This document shows positions 4,028 to 18,593 of a DNA stretch of 32,376 nucleotides, piece after piece. Source of the DNA: Gammaproteobacteria bacterium (GTDB taxonomy: Bacteria > Pseudomonadota > Gammaproteobacteria > Xanthomonadales > Marinicellaceae). The DNA lies in the NCBI GenBank assembly GCA_024280395.1, contig JAJRQG010000153.1, positions 1 through 32,376 on the forward strand, read 5' to 3'. A program made the position numbers and the translations under genes. Position 1 is the first letter of the stretch; every line of letters begins with the position of its first letter. Under the pieces are notes generated by a model. The model was given only the letters and a program-made list of their open reading frames with translations. It ran no database searches and was not told the origin of the DNA.

Positions 4028-4342
4028 CTAAGATTTAAGCTGATTTTCAATATCCATCCTCTTATGCAAAATCCGTGCAATTTCAATTTTGGTATCTAGG
4101 TCTTTATTTATAGCATAAAAGATTATATGGCTACCAATGGGAAGACTCAAAGCACTTTGATATAGGTTCTCTCTAGATTTGCCAATATTGGGTTTTTGGG
4201 ATAATAAATCGAAACCATCAGAAAGTTTTTGAGCGTATTCTTTTGCTTGAACTTCACCCCAGTTTCGAATGGTGTACTTAAAAATATTGTTTAAGTCCTT
4301 TTTCGCCAGTGCAGATAATCTAAAGTTTGTAGGGAGATTCAA
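4028..4342 (-). CDS. ParE/RelE-type toxin
   Basis: This is the toxin of a type II toxin-antitoxin pair. ParE-family toxins inhibit DNA gyrase and RelE-family ones cleave mRNA; the sequence does not tell which applies here. The protein has the typical length (104 residues) and pattern: an N-terminal LSALAKKDLNNIFKYT helix, a central KPNIGKSRENL segment, then the strands SHIIFYAI and IEIARILHKRMD. The first usable start is a TTG at 4342, since no ATG occurs before the conserved helix. That start lies inside the last codons of the antitoxin gene (23-bp overlap), suggesting coupled translation and low toxin output. Confidence 0.85.
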   Translation of the reverse strand: MNLPTNFRLSALAKKDLNNIFKYTIRNWGEVQAKEYAQKLSDGFDLLSQKPNIGKSRENLYQSALSLPIGSHIIFYAINKDLDTKIEIARILHKRMDIENQLKS

Positions 4343-4583
4343 CTTCAGCTATTTTTTGAAATAAATCCATTATATTTTCATCAGTAGAATTTTTAGATTC
4401 CAGTTGTTGAAAACCCAATAAAACCTGTTCTTTTAGTATTTCAAATTTTTTGTCACGTATTAAATCTTTTTCAAATAACAGTCTCAATCCTTCACGGATG
4501 ACTTCACTAGAAGAAGTGTATAAACCACTTTGTACTTTTTTAGCAATTCGAGTTTCAAACTCAGAACCCAATGTAATATTCAT
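4320..4583 (-). CDS. ParD-type ribbon-helix-helix antitoxin
   Basis: The 87-residue protein is the antitoxin partner of the overlapping ParE-type gene. Residues 1-40 form a ribbon-helix-helix DNA-binding domain (MNITLGSEFETRIAKKV, then SSSEVIREGLRLL), and the C-terminal half is the flexible toxin-binding tail. By family analogy it should bind and neutralise the toxin and repress its own promoter. A good ribosome site, AGGTGA, lies just before the ATG. The promoter and repeated TATGCG elements directly upstream fit autoregulation. Confidence 0.87.
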   Translation of the reverse strand: MNITLGSEFETRIAKKVQSGLYTSSSEVIREGLRLLFEKDLIRDKKFEILKEQVLLGFQQLESKNSTDENIMDLFQKIAEVESPYKL

Positions 4584-6533: not shown

Positions 6534-6860
6534 TTATGGTAACCAAAACAATGTTTTGATATTTGGAGCGTCAGTAATTTGCTTTTCAATAACACTATGT
6601 GGATTTATCAATAATTTTTTCCTTAATTGTCTTAACTTAATAATAGCTCTTATTGATTGAATAAAAATAAGCCCCATAAATAGAGTAATAAAACCGCTCA
6701 AAATTGTAAAACCATATTGTATATCAATAAATATATATGGAATAAAAATTAATCCCGATAATAAACAAGCAGTCCAATTCCTCCCTAAATTTCTATTGAG
6801 CAACCTGTAGACACCTAAGGGTCTATTTTGCTTCCTTTGTCTTCTTCTATTTGTTCCCAT
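6534..6860 (-). CDS. Small two-helix membrane protein, function unknown
   Basis: I do not recognise this 108-residue protein. The first 30 residues are strongly basic (MGTNRRRQRKQNRP), followed by two hydrophobic segments at about residues 33-53 and 54-74, then another basic stretch IIKLRQLRKKLL and a hydrophilic tail. The charge pattern suggests a small inner-membrane protein with both ends in the cytoplasm. AGGA lies about 8 bases before the ATG, which supports a real gene. It sits between hutU (97 bp upstream) and hutH in the same direction, but nothing in its sequence suggests a histidine transporter. Confidence 0.6.
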   Translation of the reverse strand: MGTNRRRQRKQNRPLGVYRLLNRNLGRNWTACLLSGLIFIPYIFIDIQYGFTILSGFITLFMGLIFIQSIRAIIKLRQLRKKLLINPHSVIEKQITDAPNIKTLFWLP

Positions 6861-6957: not shown

Positions 6958-8628
6958 TTAATCATTAACCATTGGCAACACAAGTTCATTCTCCCTCGCA
7001 CATTTCTTCGCAATTTCATACCCCGCATCCGCATGCCTCATCACTCCTGTGGCAGGATCATTCCAAAGCACTCTTGCAATGCGTTCATCGGCTTCTTTGC
7101 TACCATCACAAACAATAACAATGCCTGAGTGTTGTGAATAACCCATACCTACACCACCACCGTGATGGAGTGAAACCCAAGTGGCTCCGCTGGCGACATT
7201 GAGCATAGCGTTTAATAATGGCCAATCAGATACGGCATCTGAGCCATCTTGCATGCTTTCGGTTTCTCTGTTTGGGCTGGCAACTGAGCCTGAGTCTAGG
7301 TGGTCACGGCCAATAACTACGGGTGCGGATAATTCGCCTGTTCGTACCATTTCGTTAAATGCTAAACCTAATTTATCACGTAAGCCTAAACCGACCCAAC
7401 AGATACGGGCAGGCAAGCCTTGAAATTGAATACGCTCGCGTGCCATGTCTAACCAGTTGTGTAAGTGTGGGTCATCGGCTATGATTTCTTTGACTTTGGC
7501 ATCGGTTTTGTAGATGTCTTCGGGATCACCGGATAATGCCACCCAACGGAATGGACCAACACCACTGCAAAATAATGGGCGAACATAGGCAGGCACAAAT
7601 CCAGGGAAGTCAAAGGAATTTTTTAGGCCTTCGTTATAGGCTTCTTGGCGTATGTTGTTGCCGTAATCTACAGTTGGTATGCTTTGTGAGTGAAAATCTA
7701 ACATCGCTTGTACTTGCACACGCATGGATTTTCGGGCTTCTTTTGCCACTAAATCTGGGTTTTCTTTGGCTTGTTTTCTCCATTCTTCAACACTCCAGTT
7801 TTGTGGTAAATACCCATTGATTGGATCATGTGCTGAGGTTTGGTCAGTGACTAGGCTAGGGCGAATGCCATCTTTGTACATTTGTGGGAAAATATCAGCG
7901 GCGTTGCCCAGTAAGCCAATTGATATTGCTTGATTATTTTCTAAGGCTTGGTTTAACATGGCCATGGCTTGTTCTATTGAATAGGCTTTTTTATCCACAT
8001 AACCTGTTTTAATGCGAAAATCGATGCGCGTTTCATCACATTCAACCGCTATCATGCAGTATCCAGCCATCGCCGCTGCCAAAGGTTGCGCTCCACCCAT
8101 ACCACCGAGTCCACCAGTTAATATCCACTTGCCTTTTGTGACTCCATCAAAATGTTGTCTGCCAGCCTCAACAAAGGTTTCATACGTGCCTTGGACAATG
8201 CCTTGAGAACCAATATAAATCCACGAACCAGCAGTCATTTGACCGTACATCATTAAGCCTTTTTTATCCAATTCGTTAAAATGCTCCCAATTAGCCCAAG
8301 CCGGAACCAAGTTTGAGTTGGCAATCAAGACACGTGGCGCATCTTTGTGGGTTCTAAACACCCCAACTGGTTTGCCAGATTGGACCAATAACGTTTCATG
8401 GTCTTCCAGATTTTTTAAACTTGCAATAATTTGGTCATAACATTCCCAGTTACGTGCGGCGCGTCCAATACCACCATAAACCACCAGTTCTTCAGGGTAT
8501 TCGGCTACTTCTGCATCCAAGTTATTCATCAACATGCGCATCGGTGCTTCAGTTAGCCAAGACTTGCAGCTTAATTTTGTGCCAATAGGTGCTTTAATTT
8601 TTCGGGTTTTATCAATTCTTGTGTTCAT
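6958..8628 (-). CDS. hutU: Urocanate hydratase
   Basis: HutU hydrates urocanate to 4-imidazolone-5-propionate using tightly bound NAD+ as an electrophile. The 556-residue length matches the family. The NAD-binding glycine-rich loop [13 protein letters not shown] is at about residues 171-183. Cys410, in the segment [11 protein letters not shown], aligns with the catalytic cysteine known as Cys410 in the Pseudomonas putida enzyme. [13 protein letters not shown] near the C-terminus is also a family signature. The ATG is preceded by GAGG at normal spacing and overlaps the 3' end of the upstream MarR-type gene by 17 bp, which implies co-transcription and probably translational coupling with that regulator. 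Confidence 0.97.
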
Positions 8629-9097
8629 CTTTTTCCTCGTTGAATCTCGTCAATAAGTCTTTATTTTTTAGACCATTAATGGCATTGTTTAAGACTAAAT
8701 GTAAATCTGCTCCAATTTCATCAGATAAATGTTGATACACTGTAATCAGTGAATTTTGTTCTAATAATAGGGCTTGTTGCTTTCCGTCTTTTGTCAAATG
8801 ATAAGTACTGCGTCGCTTATCATTGTGATCATCTCTTTGTTCTATCAATCCCAAAGATTGTAATTTTGGTAATTTCTGTTTAACCAATTGATGTGATTGC
8901 TTTAAATGTTTGGCTAAATCTGTCAATGATAAATCATCATATTTGTTCAAATAATGAACCACTGAACAAGACTTAACAGGCACAACAATACCCAAAGATT
9001 CGTAAATAGGTTTGATCTGCTCTCGAATCAGATTGCTCAAATCATCGGCTTGCTTGCCAATAAAAGAATGGGATAAATTGTTTTGTTGATTTTGCAT
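8612..9097 (-). CDS. MarR-family regulator, probably of the hut operon
   Basis: The 161-residue protein is a winged helix-turn-helix regulator of the MarR family, expected to bind palindromic DNA as a dimer. The helix-turn-helix spans about residues 55-83 ([21 protein letters not shown]), and the wing has the DxxxDKRR pattern (D89, D93, K94, R95, R96) before STYHLTKDG. The helices at both ends should form the dimer. It is the first gene of a transcript that continues into hutU with a 17-bp overlap, and a perfect 32-bp palindrome lies 26 bp before its start. I infer that it represses its own operon and responds to histidine or urocanate. Proteobacterial hut genes are usually controlled by HutC (GntR family), so this is a different arrangement. 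The start lacks a strong ribosome site. Confidence 0.88.
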
Positions 9098-9123
9098 TGT
9101 TGTTAAATGTTTTTAATCACAGA

Positions 9124-9155
9124 TAAGGTAATATATTGCGCAATATATTACCTTA
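9124..9155. promoter_or_regulatory. 32-bp perfect palindrome, probable MarR operator
   Basis: All 16 base pairs of symmetry match, centred between 9139 and 9140 on TTGCGCAA, with outer ends TAAGGTAAT and ATTACCTTA. It covers the -10 box of the minus-strand promoter for the MarR-hutU operon, the position expected for an autorepressor site. The symmetry is seen directly; binding by the adjacent MarR protein is inferred. Confidence 0.8.
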
Positions 9156-9172
9156 ATTACAAAAGTTGTCAA
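9145..9172 (-). promoter_or_regulatory. Promoter of the marR-hutU operon
   Basis: On the minus strand a perfect -35 box TTGACA (9167-9172) and a -10 box TAATAT (9145-9150) are separated by 16 bp. The -10 box is inside the 32-bp palindrome. Confidence 0.6.
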
Positions 9173-9244: not shown

Positions 9245-9514
9245 ATGGGCATAACAAGCGTAAGAATTAAAGATGATTTAGATGAATCACTGAAAAAAAT
9301 TGCAGAAAAAAAACAACGCAGCAAAAGTTGGATAATTAACGAAGCAGTGGCAGAGTATATTGTAAAAGACAAAGTTGATTCGCAAAAATGGCTTGATACT
9401 TTAGAAGGGTTAGAAGATATTAAAAATGGAAGGGTAATAGATGGAGAAGAGGTCTTAGCTTGGATTGAAAGCTGGGGTACGGACAAAGAACTTGAAATGC
9501 CTAAAGTTAAATAA
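9245..9514 (+). CDS. Ribbon-helix-helix antitoxin (CopG/RelB-like)
   Basis: The 89-residue protein opens with a ribbon-helix-helix domain: the strand ITSVRIKDDLDESLKKIAEK is followed by the helix SKSWIINEAVAEYI. An acidic tail (LEGLEDIKNGRVIDGEEVLAWIESWG) of the type that wraps around ParE/RelE toxins follows. ATG at 9245 is preferred over ATG at 9218 because AAGG precedes it at normal spacing and the conserved domain begins right after it. It overlaps the toxin gene by one base (TAATG). The pair is divergent from the MarR-hutU operon. Confidence 0.88.
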   Translation: MGITSVRIKDDLDESLKKIAEKKQRSKSWIINEAVAEYIVKDKVDSQKWLDTLEGLEDIKNGRVIDGEEVLAWIESWGTDKELEMPKVK

Positions 9515-9792
9515 TGAGACTACAAATATCAGAACATGCAACTAAAGATTTTAAACGGCTTAAAAAATTTATAGAAATCAAAAACCCTATTGCAGCAAAC
9601 AAAATGGCAAAGAAGTTGGCTAAAGGAATTAGAGCTTCATTGCTATATCCAGAGATAGGCAAAGAAGTAAGAGAAGCCATAAATCCTAAGATTACAAGAG
9701 ATGTGTTTATTCTTGATTATCATGTCAGATATACTTACACAAAAAAAATATTGTTAATTTTAAGAATCTGGCATCAAAGAGAAGAGAGGTAA
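9514..9792 (+). CDS. ParE-type toxin
   Basis: The 92-residue protein has the ParE/RelE superfamily pattern: the first strand LQISEHATKDFKRLKKFI, two helices with PIAANKMAKKLAKGI, the segment YPEIGKEVREA, and the final strands FILDYHVRYTYTKKILLILRIWHQREER, whose IWHQREE ending is typical of ParE toxins. Its start codon overlaps the antitoxin stop. The target (gyrase or mRNA) cannot be read from the sequence. It is clearly different in sequence from the toxin at 4028-4342. Confidence 0.88.
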   Translation: MRLQISEHATKDFKRLKKFIEIKNPIAANKMAKKLAKGIRASLLYPEIGKEVREAINPKITRDVFILDYHVRYTYTKKILLILRIWHQREER

Positions 9793-9929: not shown

Positions 9930-12900
9930 ATGAAAAAAAATCTTATCTTAATCGCGTTTCTCTTTTTCTTCCTTTTCCTCTCGGCTTGTAATGACGAACA
10001 GGCTAATCAGCCAGAAAATAATACAGATACAAATACGATCTCTCAAGCCAGCCAATCTAAAGTTTCGATTTTAAATTTATCACATTTTAAAGTGTTAAGT
10101 ATGACCGAAGGGTTGTTTGAAAATGCACCCGCTTTGCAAGTAAATTTGACATTGCCCATTGATGAAAACCAAAATGTTTCACAATTAGTCGAGGTCACCA
10201 CCAATAAACAAAGCGTTAATGGTGATTGGATTTATAGCGATAATCGCATGGTTTTGTATTTTCCTTTTATTCAGTCAGACACTCAGTACCAAATAAAAAT
10301 TGATGCCAATTTAATGTCAGTTAAAGGCAAGAAAATTGACAAAAATTACAGTAAAATCATTAAAACTAAACGCAAACAAAAAAACGTAAGGTTTGTTTCC
10401 AAAGGCAATACCTTATTGAAAGACAGCAATAAACTTCCCATAGAAGCGGTCAATGTTTCTGCTGTAGATTTGAAATTTTGGCGCATTAAAAACAACAAGT
10501 ACCATGAATTTTTAAGACAACCCAATCGCCGTGATACATATTACTTAAGGGATATGAGTAATATTGCCGACTTGGTTTATACCAGTCAATTTGCATTAGA
10601 TATGAAGGACAATAAAACAGAAAAGCACAATCTATCAATTGCAGACATCAAACCCATTCAGCAAGCGGGTATTTATTTCGTCACCATGATTGCCAGTGAC
10701 TCTTATCCTTATGAGGTCGAGTCTAGTTGGTTTTCTGTGACAGATATTGGCTTGCATTCTCGAAAATTCCCGCATTCTATGGCTGTTTTTGCCCACAAGA
10801 TACCAGAGGCGACAGCTTATGCCAATGTTGAGTTGTCACTATTAAATGTAAAGGGAGAAGTGATAGAAAATGTCAAAACAGATCAAACTGGATTTGCAGA
10901 ACTGACCAGTAATGACTTAAACAAAGCCAATTTAATAATAGCTACCCAAGGCTCTAACTCAAATTTGATACGCATAAATCAACCGAAGATGGATTTAACC
11001 GAATTTTCACTGTCAAATCGTGCTTACAAGACCCAAGAATTGTTTCTTTATGCACCCAGAGATTTATATCGGCCTGGAGAGGCAGTAAATATCAATGCTT
11101 TATTGCGAGATGCTGACGGTCAAATGGTCACGGCTACACCGGTTCGAGTGGAAATAAAACGTCCCGATAACCGCACATTTAAAACCTTTAATTGGCAAGG
11201 TGACGAAAATTCTTTTTATACCACACAGTTTAAAATTCCAAGTGACGCCATGACTGGCGAATGGATTTTTACTGCCAAATTGGCCAATAATGATGTTTTT
11301 CAATACCCATTTGCTGTAGAAGATTTTATGCCCGAGCGTTTAAAGTTGGATTTGGCAGCAGGCAATGATTCATTGAACATCTCTTTAAGTGAAACCCCAA
11401 AGATAAAAGTACAAAGTGATTATCTTTATGGCGCTCCTGCGGCAAAGAATCGATTTGATGCCACAGTCACGGTCAATGCACAAAATAAATTATTTGAAGA
11501 TTATGCTGATTACAGTTTTGGCTCAAATAACTACAAAGAATACGATTTAAATTTCACCACTGCTTCCCAGCTTCTAGATGAACAAGGCAGTGGAGTATTG
11601 AGCATAAAACCCAATTGGAAAAGTGCTAAATTTCCTTTGCGGGTTAAAAGTTTTGTCAACGTTTATGAATCAGGTGGCAGACCGATTTCACGTAAAATTA
11701 TTCAAACCATTTGGCCTTATGATGTGGCCATTGGTGTGCGTTCATTGTGGGATGGTGATTATGCCAGCCCAAACTCAAACAGCGATATAGAATTGCTTGC
11801 CATTAACCAACAAGGTCAGCGTATCGCAATCAACAATGCTGAAGTGTTGCTTATACGAGAGAACTCACAAAGATATTGGCATTGGGGTGATGATGGCTGG
11901 AGCTACAATCAGAGCCAACACAATATACCAGTTTATAGCAGTATTGTGAATATCAGTGATAATACCAAAACACAGCTATCTTTGCCTTTAGATTATGGCA
12001 ATTACCGCGTAGAAATCAGAAATCAAAAACAACAATTGATTTCCAGTTATCAATTTTTCTCTGGATGGCGTTGGTACAACCAGAACAGCGCCAGTGGCGA
12101 ACGTCCAGATCAAATCAAGTTACAATGGCAGGCCGATAGTCTCACTTCTGGCAGCGAAGCGGAACTAAAAGTCACCGCTCCTTATACCGGTACTGCTTTA
12201 ATCACGGTTGAAAGTGATGCATTGTTATGGAAAAAAACAATTCAGATGAACAGTGCAGAGCAAACGATCAAAATTCCAATTGATGCGAATTGGAAACGTC
12301 ATGATATTCATGCCACTGTTATGGTTATTCAAAAAGGTGAAGTCAAACGCAAACACCTACCGACTCGTGCTTTCGGTGTGATCCACTTGCCGATCAATCG
12401 TGATGATAGGAAATTAGACATTGTTATTGATGCGCCTGAAAAAATACTTCCTGATAGAGAAGTCACAATAAAAGTCAAAGCAGCTAACTTAAAAAATACC
12501 CAAACTTTTGTGACTTTAGGGACAGTTGATACAGGCGTGCTCAATGTCAGTAATTTTGATACGCCCAAACCGCATGAATGGTTTTTTGCTACGCGCCAAT
12601 ACATTGCCGAGATTCGTGACATGTACGGTTCTATCATTGCTTTGGTTGATGGCAAAAACACTAACCAGAAATTTGGTGGTGATGCCGATTTAGCCCGAGG
12701 AGGAGACGAGCCATCAAGTGATGTTCAAATCATATCCATGATCAGTGACAAGGTACAATTTGATGCCGATGGTGTGGCGGAAATCACTGTGAAAATGCCT
12801 TATTTCAATGGAGAAGTGCGTTTAATGGCAATGGCTTTCAATGACAATCAATTTGCTGGTGCTGATACACGCATGAAAGTCGCTGCACCGGTTGTGATAG

Positions 12901-14825
12901 AAACATCGTTGCCACGCTTTATTGCCAAAGGCGATGAAACATTCGCTACCATTGATGTGCACAATACTGAAAATACCAGCCAAAGCATAGATTTGAAAAT
13001 TATCGCTTCTGATTCTTTAGGAGGAGAAATTTTTGAACAAAAAATCGAATTATCTGCCAATCAAAAGGAGATATTTAAATTACCTATAAAAGCGCTATTG
13101 CACAGTGGCACAGGTCAAATTGATGTGGTCGCACACATGAAAAGCAATGATGCTTTTAGTGTCAATCGTCAATGGACTGTTGGTATCCGACCTGCCTTTC
13201 CTGCTATTATTAAAAGCAGCAGTGATATCATTGATGCGGGGAATAGTTTCAAGATCACCAACAAGATGTTTGATAATTTTGATCAAGCCAATTTGAAATC
13301 AGTATTAAAAATATCTAATTTACCCGTACTCAATGCCGATGAACAATTACAGCATTTGATTCAATACCCTTATGGTTGTTTGGAGCAAACCACCTCACGC
13401 GCATGGCCACTGATGTTGGTAGAGAAATCTGATTTGGGATTGTTTGAAACCGAACAGCAGGAAAAGATCTACTCAAAACGTTCTGAACTTATTGATGGAG
13501 CCATCAGTCGATTATTAGGGATGCAACGCTATGATGGCAGTTTTGGCTTGTGGAACAGCGACAGTCATGAAGAATATTGGTTAACAGTTTATGTCACCGA
13601 ATTTATGCTCAAAGCCCGCGGTCTGGGTTACAATATTTCTAAAAGTGCTCTAGAAAAAGCCATCAAACGCTTACAATATTATGTCAAGGGCAGGGCGTAT
13701 CTCAATTCGGATTTAAAAAAATATTTGAGTAACGTTAGCTATTACAAATTAAGTTATCGAGCCTATGCCGCTTATGTTTTGGCAGGCATTAAACAAGTCA
13801 ATTTGCAGGATATTCGTAAATTGTTCGATAATAATGCAGACAAGTCTAAAAGCCCTTTGCCCTTGGCCTATTTAGCACTGGCTCTAGAGAAAATGGGCGA
13901 TAACCGACGAGCACAACAAGCTTGGTTGAAGGCTGTAGATTTTAAATGGACTCAAGACCGTTACCGTTATTATGGTGATTATGGCTCCAAAATTCGTGAT
14001 CTAGCACAAGTTGTTCAATTGGGATTACAAAGCAATTTGACCCATGATTTACCAAAGTCAACCTTACAAATGTTAAAACCATTGCAACAGGAGTTGCGTA
14101 CCAGAAGGTGGCTATCTACTCAAGAGCGCGGTGCCATATTTAGAGTGGCAAAAGCTTTGAAAAACAGCAAAAGTATGAATAAAAAATGGCGCGCCACCCT
14201 GAGTATTAGTAAGAACAAAGAATCATTTGAACAAGCCGAAGATCTAATCAGGGTGTGGTACCAAAAGGATGCCAGTCGACCCTTAACTGTTAATAATTCT
14301 GGTGATATTCCATTGTATGTGGATTTTAAAACCCAAGGTTATTTAAAAGATGCGATACCTGAGAGTAATGGGATCAATGTAGAGAGACGGTTTTTCAACC
14401 TACAAGGCGAAAAACTGGATATATCAAAACTATCCACAGGTGATATGGTTTTAGTGCATATTAAAATAAACCTTGAAAAGAAATACAGTTATTTGCCTGA
14501 TGCCATGTTGATTGAGTTATTGCCAGCAGGGTTGGAGTTGGAAAACCAGAACCTTGAACACAGCATGAAATTGGGTGGTATCAAGATTGATGGTAAAAAA
14601 GTCACCGATATGATCCACACTAGAATCAAGCACAGTGAATATCGCGATGACCGCTACATTGCAGCCTTGACCTTATCGGGTTACAGCGACAACAATCTCT
14701 TCTACTTAGCTCGTGCAGTTACCCCTGGAACTTACACCGTCCCACCTTCACTAGTAGAAGACATGTACCGCCCGGAAATCCGAGCCATTGGTGAAAGCGT
14801 TGGTAAGATGGTGATTAGTGAATAA
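9930..14825 (+). CDS. yfhM: Bacterial alpha-2-macroglobulin lipoprotein (YfhM/ECAM-like)
   Basis: This is a bacterial alpha-2-macroglobulin, a protease trap thought to protect the periplasm when the wall or outer membrane is breached. The 1631 residues match the family length. The N-terminus is a lipoprotein signal with lipobox LSAC, so Cys20 would be lipidated; the next residue is Asn, not the Asp that retains lipoproteins in the inner membrane in E. coli-type sorting. Repeated beta-sandwich MG domains follow, including ELFLYAPRDLYRPGEAVNI around residue 370. The thioester motif Cys1150-Leu-Glu-Gln1153 within YPYGCLEQTTSRAWP is intact, which marks a covalent-trap type. The following alpha-helical thioester domain runs to about residue 1430. 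The gene is followed, after two small genes, by pbpC, its common genomic partner. Confidence 0.95.
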   Translation: MKKNLILIAFLFFFLFLSACNDEQANQPENNTDTNTISQASQSKVSILNLSHFKVLSMTEGLFENAPALQVNLTLPIDENQNVSQLVEVTTNKQSVNGDWIYSDNRMVLYFPFIQSDTQYQIKIDANLMSVKGKKIDKNYSKIIKTKRKQKNVRFVSKGNTLLKDSNKLPIEAVNVSAVDLKFWRIKNNKYHEFLRQPNRRDTYYLRDMSNIADLVYTSQFALDMKDNKTEKHNLSIADIKPIQQAGIYFVTMIASDSYPYEVESSWFSVTDIGLHSRKFPHSMAVFAHKIPEATAYANVELSLLNVKGEVIENVKTDQTGFAELTSNDLNKANLIIATQGSNSNLIRINQPKMDLTEFSLSNRAYKTQELFLYAPRDLYRPGEAVNINALLRDADGQMVTATPVRVEIKRPDNRTFKTFNWQGDENSFYTTQFKIPSDAMTGEWIFTAKLANNDVFQYPFAVEDFMPERLKLDLAAGNDSLNISLSETPKIKVQSDYLYGAPAAKNRFDATVTVNAQNKLFEDYADYSFGSNNYKEYDLNFTTASQLLDEQGSGVLSIKPNWKSAKFPLRVKSFVNVYESGGRPISRKIIQTIWPYDVAIGVRSLWDGDYASPNSNSDIELLAINQQGQRIAINNAEVLLIRENSQRYWHWGDDGWSYNQSQHNIPVYSSIVNISDNTKTQLSLPLDYGNYRVEIRNQKQQLISSYQFFSGWRWYNQNSASGERPDQIKLQWQADSLTSGSEAELKVTAPYTGTALITVESDALLWKKTIQMNSAEQTIKIPIDANWKRHDIHATVMVIQKGEVKRKHLPTRAFGVIHLPINRDDRKLDIVIDAPEKILPDREVTIKVKAANLKNTQTFVTLGTVDTGVLNVSNFDTPKPHEWFFATRQYIAEIRDMYGSIIALVDGKNTNQKFGGDADLARGGDEPSSDVQIISMISDKVQFDADGVAEITVKMPYFNGEVRLMAMAFNDNQFAGADTRMKVAAPVVIETSLPRFIAKGDETFATIDVHNTENTSQSIDLKIIASDSLGGEIFEQKIELSANQKEIFKLPIKALLHSGTGQIDVVAHMKSNDAFSVNRQWTVGIRPAFPAIIKSSSDIIDAGNSFKITNKMFDNFDQANLKSVLKISNLPVLNADEQLQHLIQYPYGCLEQTTSRAWPLMLVEKSDLGLFETEQQEKIYSKRSELIDGAISRLLGMQRYDGSFGLWNSDSHEEYWLTVYVTEFMLKARGLGYNISKSALEKAIKRLQYYVKGRAYLNSDLKKYLSNVSYYKLSYRAYAAYVLAGIKQVNLQDIRKLFDNNADKSKSPLPLAYLALALEKMGDNRRAQQAWLKAVDFKWTQDRYRYYGDYGSKIRDLAQVVQLGLQSNLTHDLPKSTLQMLKPLQQELRTRRWLSTQERGAIFRVAKALKNSKSMNKKWRATLSISKNKESFEQAEDLIRVWYQKDASRPLTVNNSGDIPLYVDFKTQGYLKDAIPESNGINVERRFFNLQGEKLDISKLSTGDMVLVHIKINLEKKYSYLPDAMLIELLPAGLELENQNLEHSMKLGGIKIDGKKVTDMIHTRIKHSEYRDDRYIAALTLSGYSDNNLFYLARAVTPGTYTVPPSLVEDMYRPEIRAIGESVGKMVISE

Positions 14826-16259: not shown

Positions 16260-18593
16260 ATGGTAAAACTTCTTAAAATCAAAAAATGGCTGAAAAGAAT
16301 AATTCTAATCAACCTTTTTCTGTTTGTCACGTTTATATTTTTAGATTGGTTAATACCTTTGCCCATCGATGATTTTAATAAGAGAAGTTTTGCTCAAGTT
16401 GTGGTGGATAAAGATGGACAACCCTTGCGGGCTTTTCCTGATTCGCAAGGTGTGTGGCGGTATCCTGTTGAATTATCAGAAGTTTCGCCGTTATATCTTG
16501 AGGCCTTGATTAACTATGAAGATAGGTATTATTACCAACACTTTGGGATCAATCCATTGGCTGTTGGACGGGCTTTTTGGCAATGGATTTGGGAAGGAGA
16601 GTTGGTTTCTGGCGCTTCAACTTTAACCATGCAAGTCTCAAGAATTTTAAAGCCACATCAGAAAACGCTAACGGGCAAGTTGGGACAAATGTTTCGGGCT
16701 TTGCAGTTGGAGTGGCATTTTAGCAAAGAGGAAATTCTTACCTATTACGTCAATTATGCGCCTTTTGGTGGAACAATAGAGGGCGTACAAGCCGCCAGTT
16801 ATGCCTATTTTGGTAAAAATGCCAATGAACTCAGCCATTCCGAAGCGGCATTACTAGCGGTTATGCCGCAATCTCCCTCTCGATTTAGGCCTGATAGATA
16901 TCCACAAAGGGCAGAGCAAGCCCGCAATAAATTACTCAAACGCCTACAACAATTTAAAGTGTGGGATCAACTGATTATTGGAGAAGCCATGGACGAAGAG
17001 GTTTGGGCAGAATACAACACCAGACCGATGATTGCACCGCTTTTGACCCGCAGATTAACCAAGCAATTTGCAAAACAACAGGTGATTGAATCGACCATTG
17101 ACATTGGATTGCAAACAGAATTGGAAAGGTTGGTTAAAAACTATGTTTTATCTAAATCTGACAAAATGTCAGCGGCATTGTTGTTGGTAGAAAATGACAG
17201 TATGGCAACTCGTGCCTATATTGGCAGTGCTGATTTTCTCAACAATAATAGAGTGGGTCATGTTGATATGATACAGGCCATTCGATCACCTGGTTCTACT
17301 CTAAAACCCTTTATTTATGGCATGGCAATTGATCAAGGGTTGATTCATTCTCAATCTTTGTTGTTCGATGTTCCACAATCATTTAGTGGTTATCGTCCAA
17401 AAAATTTCAGTAGCTCCTTTCATGGTGCGGTCAGTGTTTCTCAAGCTTTGGGCCGTTCGCTCAATATGCCTGCTGTACAGTTACTCAATGAAGTCACTGC
17501 TGAATCCTTCTATGCACAGATGAAAAATGCAGGTTTAGACATGCAATTACCCAATGCGGCAAAACCCAATTTATCCTTGGCTCTGGGTGGTGGTGGAGTC
17601 AGTATGCAGCAATTGGTCGGAACATTTAGCAGTTTGGGGCGTAAAGGGAAATCTGCAGATATTCGATTGACAAGAGATGAAAAATTAAAACAATACTCAA
17701 CCATGAGTGAAGGCAGTGCTTGGATTGTGCAAAATATTTTATCCAATGTGCCGATGAAAAGAGTACGTTCCAAATACATCGATTCAAGCAATACTGTTGC
17801 CTACAAAACAGGAACCAGTTATGGTTCACGTGATGCTTGGGTGATTGCCAGCAATAAAAAATTCACCATCGGTATTTGGCTGGGTCAAGCCGATGGTTCA
17901 GCTATTGAAAAGAACAGTGGCAGACAAGCAGCCGTTCCTTTATTGCAGCAAGTCTTGGCTATTTTACCAGCGGATTGGCAACAAAAAGTAGATAAGCCTT
18001 TTAATGTCAGTTATGAAAAAATTTGTTGGCCCTTGGGTACAAAAGCCAGTTCACAAACACAAGCCAATTGCCACCAGTCAAGAAATGCTTATCTTCTTGA
18101 TGGCACCGCATCACCCACCATCAGTGATCCATCCAGTGATGTTTTCTCATCAGGATTGTTGCCTGTGCAGATAGAAAAAGATTCAGGGTTAAGGGTATTG
18201 CCGAATTGTTGGAGTGGAGAAACCACCACACAACAATTTGCTGTCTGGCCAAAAGTATTAGAACCTTGGATTGCCAAGCCTTATCGCCGTTCTAGTTTTT
18301 TACCTCACTTTAGTAAAAAATGCGCCATCATTCAATCAACCAGTAAACTCAAAATTTCAGGTGTTCACAATCATTCTATTGTCTACCCAGAAGCATCAAG
18401 TTTATTTATGCCCGATGTTCAATTAAGGCTGCAAGGATCATCGGGGAAAAACTACTGGTTTGTTAATGGTGTGTTACAAGAGAGCAATAATCGAGATTTG
18501 ATTTTGTCCCAATTAGAATTAGGAAAATATAAAGTGACGGTGGTTGATAACAGTGCTAATTTTGCAGAAATTGAGTTTGAAGTGAGGTTGTAA
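16260..18593 (+). CDS. pbpC: Penicillin-binding protein 1C
   Basis: PbpC is a bifunctional class A penicillin-binding protein anchored in the inner membrane. The 777-residue protein has a basic N-terminus and one membrane helix (about residues 13-35). The GT51 transglycosylase domain follows, with the catalytic glutamate motif NYEDRYYYQHFG (E87, D88) and GASTLTMQVSR. The transpeptidase has all three motifs: S346-T-L-K349, S400-L-N402 and K516-T-G518. After about residue 590 comes the C-terminal domain typical of PBP1C. It is commonly encoded next to alpha-2-macroglobulin, and the pair is thought to trap intruding proteases and repair the wall. Here a racemase and a PEGA-like gene separate the two. 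No strong ribosome site is visible before the ATG. Confidence 0.95.
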   Translation: MVKLLKIKKWLKRIILINLFLFVTFIFLDWLIPLPIDDFNKRSFAQVVVDKDGQPLRAFPDSQGVWRYPVELSEVSPLYLEALINYEDRYYYQHFGINPLAVGRAFWQWIWEGELVSGASTLTMQVSRILKPHQKTLTGKLGQMFRALQLEWHFSKEEILTYYVNYAPFGGTIEGVQAASYAYFGKNANELSHSEAALLAVMPQSPSRFRPDRYPQRAEQARNKLLKRLQQFKVWDQLIIGEAMDEEVWAEYNTRPMIAPLLTRRLTKQFAKQQVIESTIDIGLQTELERLVKNYVLSKSDKMSAALLLVENDSMATRAYIGSADFLNNNRVGHVDMIQAIRSPGSTLKPFIYGMAIDQGLIHSQSLLFDVPQSFSGYRPKNFSSSFHGAVSVSQALGRSLNMPAVQLLNEVTAESFYAQMKNAGLDMQLPNAAKPNLSLALGGGGVSMQQLVGTFSSLGRKGKSADIRLTRDEKLKQYSTMSEGSAWIVQNILSNVPMKRVRSKYIDSSNTVAYKTGTSYGSRDAWVIASNKKFTIGIWLGQADGSAIEKNSGRQAAVPLLQQVLAILPADWQQKVDKPFNVSYEKICWPLGTKASSQTQANCHQSRNAYLLDGTASPTISDPSSDVFSSGLLPVQIEKDSGLRVLPNCWSGETTTQQFAVWPKVLEPWIAKPYRRSSFLPHFSKKCAIIQSTSKLKISGVHNHSIVYPEASSLFMPDVQLRLQGSSGKNYWFVNGVLQESNNRDLILSQLELGKYKVTVVDNSANFAEIEFEVRL

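Follow-up and report, generated by a model that had tools for sequence, protein, structure and literature searches.

A MarR-type regulator and its conserved operator appear to stand in for HutC at the histidine utilization genes of the Marinicella group

What controls histidine breakdown in a bacterium that carries a MarR-type gene, and no recognizable hutC, at the head of its hut genes? In proteobacteria, local control of histidine use usually falls to HutC. It has been reported in 113 proteobacterial genomes (PMC5343134), and in Pseudomonas aeruginosa it binds the promoters of both hut operons, with histidine and urocanate as effectors (PMC12977541). The window considered here, a whole stretch of 32,376 nucleotides from a member of the Marinicellaceae (contig JAJRQG010000153.1), was originally predicted to hold a hut operon under the control of a MarR regulator instead, and that prediction of control is probably right. 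As read here, the MarR protein quite probably represses the operon that its gene heads, marR-hutU-hutH (with hutG added in Marinicella), as a local regulator that also controls itself, and stands in for HutC. The features concerned are collected in Table 1.

Table 1. Genes and predicted regulatory features of the MarR-hutU region (window coordinates)
Feature	Position	Strand	Basis or remark
hutH, histidine ammonia-lyase, 508 aa	4756..6282	-	TIGR01225, 676.6 bits (cut-off 539.15)
108-aa ORF between hutU and hutH	6534..6860	-	no Pfam or NCBIfam match
hutU, urocanate hydratase, 556 aa	6958..8628	-	TIGR01228, 941.5 bits (cut-off 375)
MarR/hutU overlap, 17 bp	8612..8628	-	
MarR-family regulator, 161 aa	8612..9097	-	first gene of proposed hut operon
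Putative recognition helix, MarR residues 67-77	8867..8899	-	model helix 69-81 and invariant residues
Perfect 32-bp palindrome, proposed operator	9124..9155	.	
Conserved 24-bp operator core GTAATATATTGCGCAATATATTAC	9128..9151	.	
-10 box TAATAT, within operator	9145..9150	-	
-35 box TTGACA	9167..9172	-	

Membership of the regulator in the MarR family follows from its winged-helix domain, which passes the curated gathering cut-offs of two Pfam families, PF12802 (MarR_2; 34.3 bits, cut-off 27) and PF01047 (MarR; 26.8 bits, cut-off 24.6). The AlphaFold2 model (pLDDT 86.2, pTM 0.72) is that of a standard MarR fold, helical in its N- and C-terminal parts, and it matches both Escherichia coli MarR (3voe; Z 15.1, rmsd 5.0 over 136 residues) and MarR with operator DNA (5h3r; Z 14.6, rmsd 3.5 over 139). 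None of three equivalog models claims the protein: the HpaR model gave 22 bits, far under its cut-off of 121.2, the BilQ model gave 31.1 bits, far under its cut-off of 125, and TIGR02018, the HutC model, had no match at E 0.001. Residues Q67, S68, H69, Q70, L71, K73, Q74, K75 and P77 are invariant in two MarR alignments, A1 (21 rows) and A2 (15 of the 27 MarR proteins at hand, that is, the window protein and those of 26 public loci, with four rows from the Kangiella group). By analogy with the MarR fold, residues 67-77 would form the recognition helix. Cys44 is nearly invariant and may serve in redox sensing, although the valine found in its place in Marinicella meishanensis (L021/L088) counts against this.

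The palindrome upstream, TAAGGTAATATATTGC|GCAATATATTACCTTA, has no mismatch in its 32 bp. No other perfect even palindrome in the window reaches 16 bp, and in 100 simulated Markov-1 sequences as long as the window, the longest perfect palindrome averaged 15.8 bp and never exceeded 22 bp. The promoter predicted for the MarR gene, TTGACA and TAATAT at a spacing of 16 bp with the -10 box inside the palindrome, is present as described. Such a match proves little by itself, because the promoter scan returned only modestly more promoter-like sites than expected (seven in 701 bp, with a mean of 4.0 in shuffled sequence). The predicted transcription start falls at the centre of the dyad, near 9138. 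A palindromic site overlapping the regulator's own promoter, as is characteristic of the MarR family, can thus be recognized here by its location and, as described below, by its conservation.

Is the association with hutU more than a local accident? A protein search with the MarR sequence (E 0.001) through 61 genomes of the same genus, family and order, the own genome included, found matches in 34. The 21 best, at 54-100% identity, all belong to the family of the window and come from 10/11 genomes of its own genus and 11/18 of a second genus, which includes named Marinicella species. In every one of these 21 loci, hutU lies directly downstream on the same strand. The two genes overlap in 15 (in 11 of them by 4 bp) and are separated by gaps of 5-115 bp in the other six, by the start-codon rule used in this analysis; the overlap predicted for the window was accordingly borne out at 17 bp and recurs as such in relatives, but its exact length is not conserved. 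The next matches (L023 to L026, at about 40% identity and below) have no hutU in their loci.

The conserved part of the palindrome is shorter than the 32 bp that are perfect in the window: only a core of 24 bp is kept among relatives. When the pattern RYAAYATRTTGCGCAAYATRTTRY was searched within three mismatches in the 33 genomes of the family, it was found directly before the MarR gene in 18 of the 21 MarR genomes. In the remaining three, the site is perfect but at the end of another contig (G002), truncated by a contig end (G032) or reduced to its right half, the right 12-mer (G016). Among the 12 family genomes without this MarR, a site was found in one (G025, three mismatches), where the reversed-pattern control matches too. 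Five extra sites with two or three mismatches (in G001, G005, G010, G020 and G025) compare with control matches in 4/33 genomes (G016, G022, G023 and G025), and a second set of ten genomes yielded two extra sites at three mismatches (G064 and G066) and one control match (G069). Since the site occurs in 18/21 against 1/12 genomes and the extra sites stay at about the level of the control, it would seem to accompany the MarR gene and, within reach of the pattern, nothing else. Candidates for further operators of a regulon were thus not convincing; the extra site in G020, with two mismatches, lies at C3:410926.

The placement of the site relative to the promoter was compared in a table of 26 sites, drawn from 9/10 own-genus, 10/11 second-genus and 7/7 Kangiella-group loci (G002 and G032, with sites cut by contig ends, were excluded). 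TTGACA lies 16 bp from the second base of the operator in 8/9 own-genus rows, which makes the -10 box the edge of the operator, and TTGAC[ACT] lies 25-27 bp away in 9/10 second-genus rows, so that a normally spaced -10 box falls immediately ahead of it. The spacing is fixed within each of the two lineages. Because a bound protein would cover the start region in both geometries, this would be a repressor's place. The 26 sites fit one 24-bp dyad and two tandem 12-bp sites about equally well: complementarity is 253/312 for the former and 247/312 for the latter, with the two 12-mers agreeing at 243/312 positions.

How far would such control extend? In the window, hutU and hutH are 675 bp apart with the 108-aa ORF in between, so the term "hut operon" in the original prediction is presumptive there, as is co-transcription of hutH across that distance. 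The term does suit three named Marinicella loci (L088 of M. meishanensis, and L079 and L082, which represent M. litoralis and M. marina), in which marR, hutU, hutH and hutG are contiguous and in that order; hutG was confirmed by PF05013 at 208.2 bits in L082 and recognized by eye in the other two. The 108-aa ORF is absent between hutU and hutH in the three named Marinicella loci read, and has tblastn matches at 49-73% identity in L072, L073, L077 and L080. In the own genome (3.77 Mb in 158 contigs, 99.31% complete), hutI, hutG and hutF are on other contigs (C127, C49 and C66, respectively). The original prediction proposed looking for additional palindromes in front of other hut genes, and none appeared: the central 30-mer has one copy within three mismatches in the own genome, and a weight matrix built from 18 typed sites found no site around hutI in nine own-genus genomes (flanks of about 1.5 kb on each side, less at contig ends). 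With the remaining genes elsewhere and a single operator in the genome, control would therefore cover only hutU and hutH, the first two steps.

If MarR controls the operon, where is HutC? By the TIGR02018 equivalog model (cut-off 220 bits), HutC is found in 5/61 genomes (G011, G038, G044, G048 and G053), in 0/21 of those with MarR next to hutU and in 0/4 named Marinicella genomes. The best match in the own genome reaches 51 bits and covers only model positions 1-74, so the look for hutC proposed with the original prediction found none over the cut-off there. The claim that a MarR-type regulator with a well-defined site, and not HutC, is linked to hut in this organism was thus upheld by the adjacency, the co-occurrence of the site and the distribution of HutC. 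Neither regulator is necessary, since 9/33 family genomes have hutU with neither the orthologous MarR nor HutC over the cut-off; single absences carry little weight, most of the genomes being drafts.

A further comparison comes from Kangiella. A scan of public genomes by two short peptide patterns, which can miss relatives, gave 26 MarR loci, seven of them from Kangiella and its family. These proteins are 38-50% identical to the window MarR and have the same recognition helix, and the same operator lies upstream of the gene in 7/7 loci (and in 6/6 genomes searched). No hutU or hutH was found by tblastn in the flanks of these genes, which extended to at most 8 kb and less far on one side in L091 and L092. 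Six of the seven genomes (all but that of L092) were searched for HutC and hutU: hutU-hutH lies elsewhere in the genome, without this operator, and HutC over the cut-off is encoded 31-100 bp directly before hutU in 6/6. In a tree of hutU (48 rows after five identical ones were dropped; G011, G025, G028 and G029 are not included), a single branch (100/96) unites all 19 MarR-linked rows with the six Kangiella-group rows and G031, and the hutU of MarR-less family members G013, G017, G019, G022 and G024 falls outside it. At least three changes of the MarR label are needed on this tree, and the forks within the shared branch are partly open. The MarR tree (without L008) was used for the split between Kangiella and Marinicella only, because its outgroup branches are very long. 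The simplest account would be that of one hutU-hutH lineage with HutC at the head in Kangiella and, in the Marinicella group, MarR plus operator; the two regulators exclude each other at the operon. MarR and operator apparently occupy the place of HutC, and this would therefore be a non-orthologous replacement of the regulator.

Does the MarR protein really regulate hut? The MarR gene might regulate itself or a divergent gene only, with hutU and hutH under a promoter and control of their own and no regulatory meaning in the adjacency. The 675 bp before hutH in the window could be taken in that sense, as could a toxin-antitoxin pair that diverges from MarR at 9245-9792 and weak promoter-like matches inside the MarR gene (such as TTGATA-18-AATGAT, 8848-8819, 9/12), which are near shuffle level. 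However, the divergent genes seen differ between lineages while the order marR-hutU does not, the operator's promoter points toward hutU in both genera of the family, and in the 15 loci with overlapping genes there is no intergenic room for a promoter of hutU. Mere adjacency is thus quite improbable. It is scarcely credible that the palindrome acts as a nucleic acid structure, as a cruciform or an mRNA hairpin, rather than as a protein site. Its single-strand fold is far better than that of shuffled sequences (z -5.9), but so would be that of any perfect palindrome. Over the 26 sites it is the letters that are conserved, while at three of the 12 pairs complementarity is kept in about half of the rows (pairs 5/20, 13/26; 8/17, 12/26; 2/23, 13/26). 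With the -10 box inside the palindrome, moreover, the transcript would start near the dyad centre and so lack half of the stem.

A more serious competitor is that hutU and hutH came under the promoter of an autoregulated MarR when hutC was displaced, and that the regulator still answers a signal unrelated to histidine, such as peptides. The Kangiella-group loci lend this some substance. There, the operator overlaps a promoter-like TTGACT-18-TAAYAT pair on the strand opposite MarR in 7/7 loci, facing away from the MarR gene; on the MarR strand, the 60 bp upstream of the operator contain TTGAC[ACT] in 0/7. Among the four loci covered (L091, L093, L094 and L095, with L092, L096 and L097 outside this reading), the divergent gene was assigned to Peptidase_M19, a dipeptidase, by Pfam in L091 and by visual reading in L093 and L094, and L095 has an Rce1-like (protease-like) gene there; a dipeptidase neighbour might suggest a peptide signal. 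A distant MarR (L026) from a genome that lacks hutU adjoins ABC-transporter-like genes and also has a similar site. Against this stands the link between MarR and hutU in all 21 orthologues of two genera, 15 of them with overlapping genes, and selection should act against a hut operon ruled by an unrelated signal, except where the two signals correlate. On balance, such a capture is unlikely.

In the preferred reading, that of MarR as a repressor of its own hut operon, a MarR dimer, or two side by side, would bind the 24-bp GYAAYATRTTGC-GCAAYATRTTRC site. The bound protein would cover or abut the -10 box and so exclude RNA polymerase, until a small ligand released it from the operator. DNA binding, repression and induction by MarR are ascribed to it here by analogy with the family. 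What would the ligand be? Given the rest, urocanate is the most economical guess, albeit a tentative one that could well be wrong; it is favored as an intermediate of the hut pathway that is also a named HutC effector, and because small aromatic acids are ligands of some fold neighbors of the MarR protein. The original prediction went further and called sensing of urocanate or histidine probable, a claim that finds no support here. Kangiella counts against assuming it, since an orthologue with the same operator is found away from hut while HutC stands before hutU, and the original signal of the regulator therefore need not belong to histidine breakdown. It is conceivable, if rather doubtful, that MarR and its operator, whose Kangiella relative would serve a dipeptidase-type promoter, displaced hutC at the same hutU-hutH and thereby put histidine degradation under a different signal. 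The operator and the recognition helix would then have stayed constant, while promoter, direction and target changed.

Compared with known systems, the likeness to HutC is one of role. Like HutC, the MarR gene heads a hut operon with a conserved site at its promoter, and repression of the hut genes at the hutU promoter is predicted for it. HutC itself is a different gene from an unrelated family (GntR/UTRA) and occupies in the Kangiella group the position held here by MarR. Another parallel is HmgS of the tyrosine pathway, likened here by description, not by sequence: the available part of PMC5343134, which names replacement regulators for other pathways, presents it as a MarR protein and a predicted local, non-orthologous regulator of an amino acid degradation operon. 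In the portions available, that paper names no replacement regulator for hut, and PMC4349456 no MarR regulator of hut. None was found in the literature searched, which comprised freely accessible papers, and novelty is claimed within that scope. NadR, BpsR, PcaV and HpaR, MarR proteins with small aromatic ligands, share the fold (5aip, Z 12.6; 6pco, Z 13.9; 4fht, Z 13.2; 7el3, Z 13.4; values less than 1 apart are tied) but are 13-18% identical to the window MarR, and the ligand cannot be read from the fold. The titles of the structure entries name the ligands of NadR and BpsR; PcaV and HpaR are known to bind small aromatic ligands.

Judged from the genomes, this appears to be a real, conserved pair of regulator and operator and a well-marked case of regulator replacement, with an ordinary mechanism that is new in the hut pathway as far as could be searched. 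The same lineage of the operon has, at one position, unrelated repressors in the two groups, the MarR one predicted. This offers a clean natural case of how regulators are swapped without breaking control, and of whether the newcomer took over the old signal. It also provides a 24-bp motif by which this MarR group can be recognized in genome sequences.

Several further observations concern the loci and their surroundings. A MarR profile (E 1e-12) run over 369 genomes of the class returned the own genome and two weak matches only, L025 of G044 and L155 of G208, and thus gave no sign of a wider family; the neighbors of L025, the one of the two that was read, do not point to hut. The distant MarR of L026 (G047; 30% identity) has its similar site, ACAATATATTGCGCAATATGTTGC, upstream of 1920, and adjoins the ABC-transporter-like genes by eye; the operator type may belong to a wider group of MarR proteins. 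In L077, the first 33 bases of the contig lie inside an operator half-site and look like a sequencing-library adapter, so that the assembly seems to be broken at the palindrome. The hutU of G011 was matched in pieces at C1:3721359-3722958 and 4211993-4213623, which suggests frameshifts or broken copies. Variants of ATAATGATAATCATTATCATT, which resembles a Fur box, occur in second-genus loci, whether or not these contain MarR, in the intergenic region ahead of MarR or hutU (L051, L054, L056, L079, L081, L082, L085, L086, L088 and L089), and may belong to a divergent gene of unknown family.

Within the window, the pair divergent from MarR consists of a ribbon-helix-helix antitoxin (PF01402; 9245-9514, plus strand) and a ParE toxin (PF05016; 9514-9792, plus strand). 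By eye, a similar pair is at the same place in L073, and a second ParD/ParE-like pair follows just after hutH, at about 4028-4583 on the minus strand. Farther along the plus strand are a bacterial alpha-2-macroglobulin (9930-14825, ten Pfam families matched) and penicillin-binding protein 1C (16260-18593), a common pairing.
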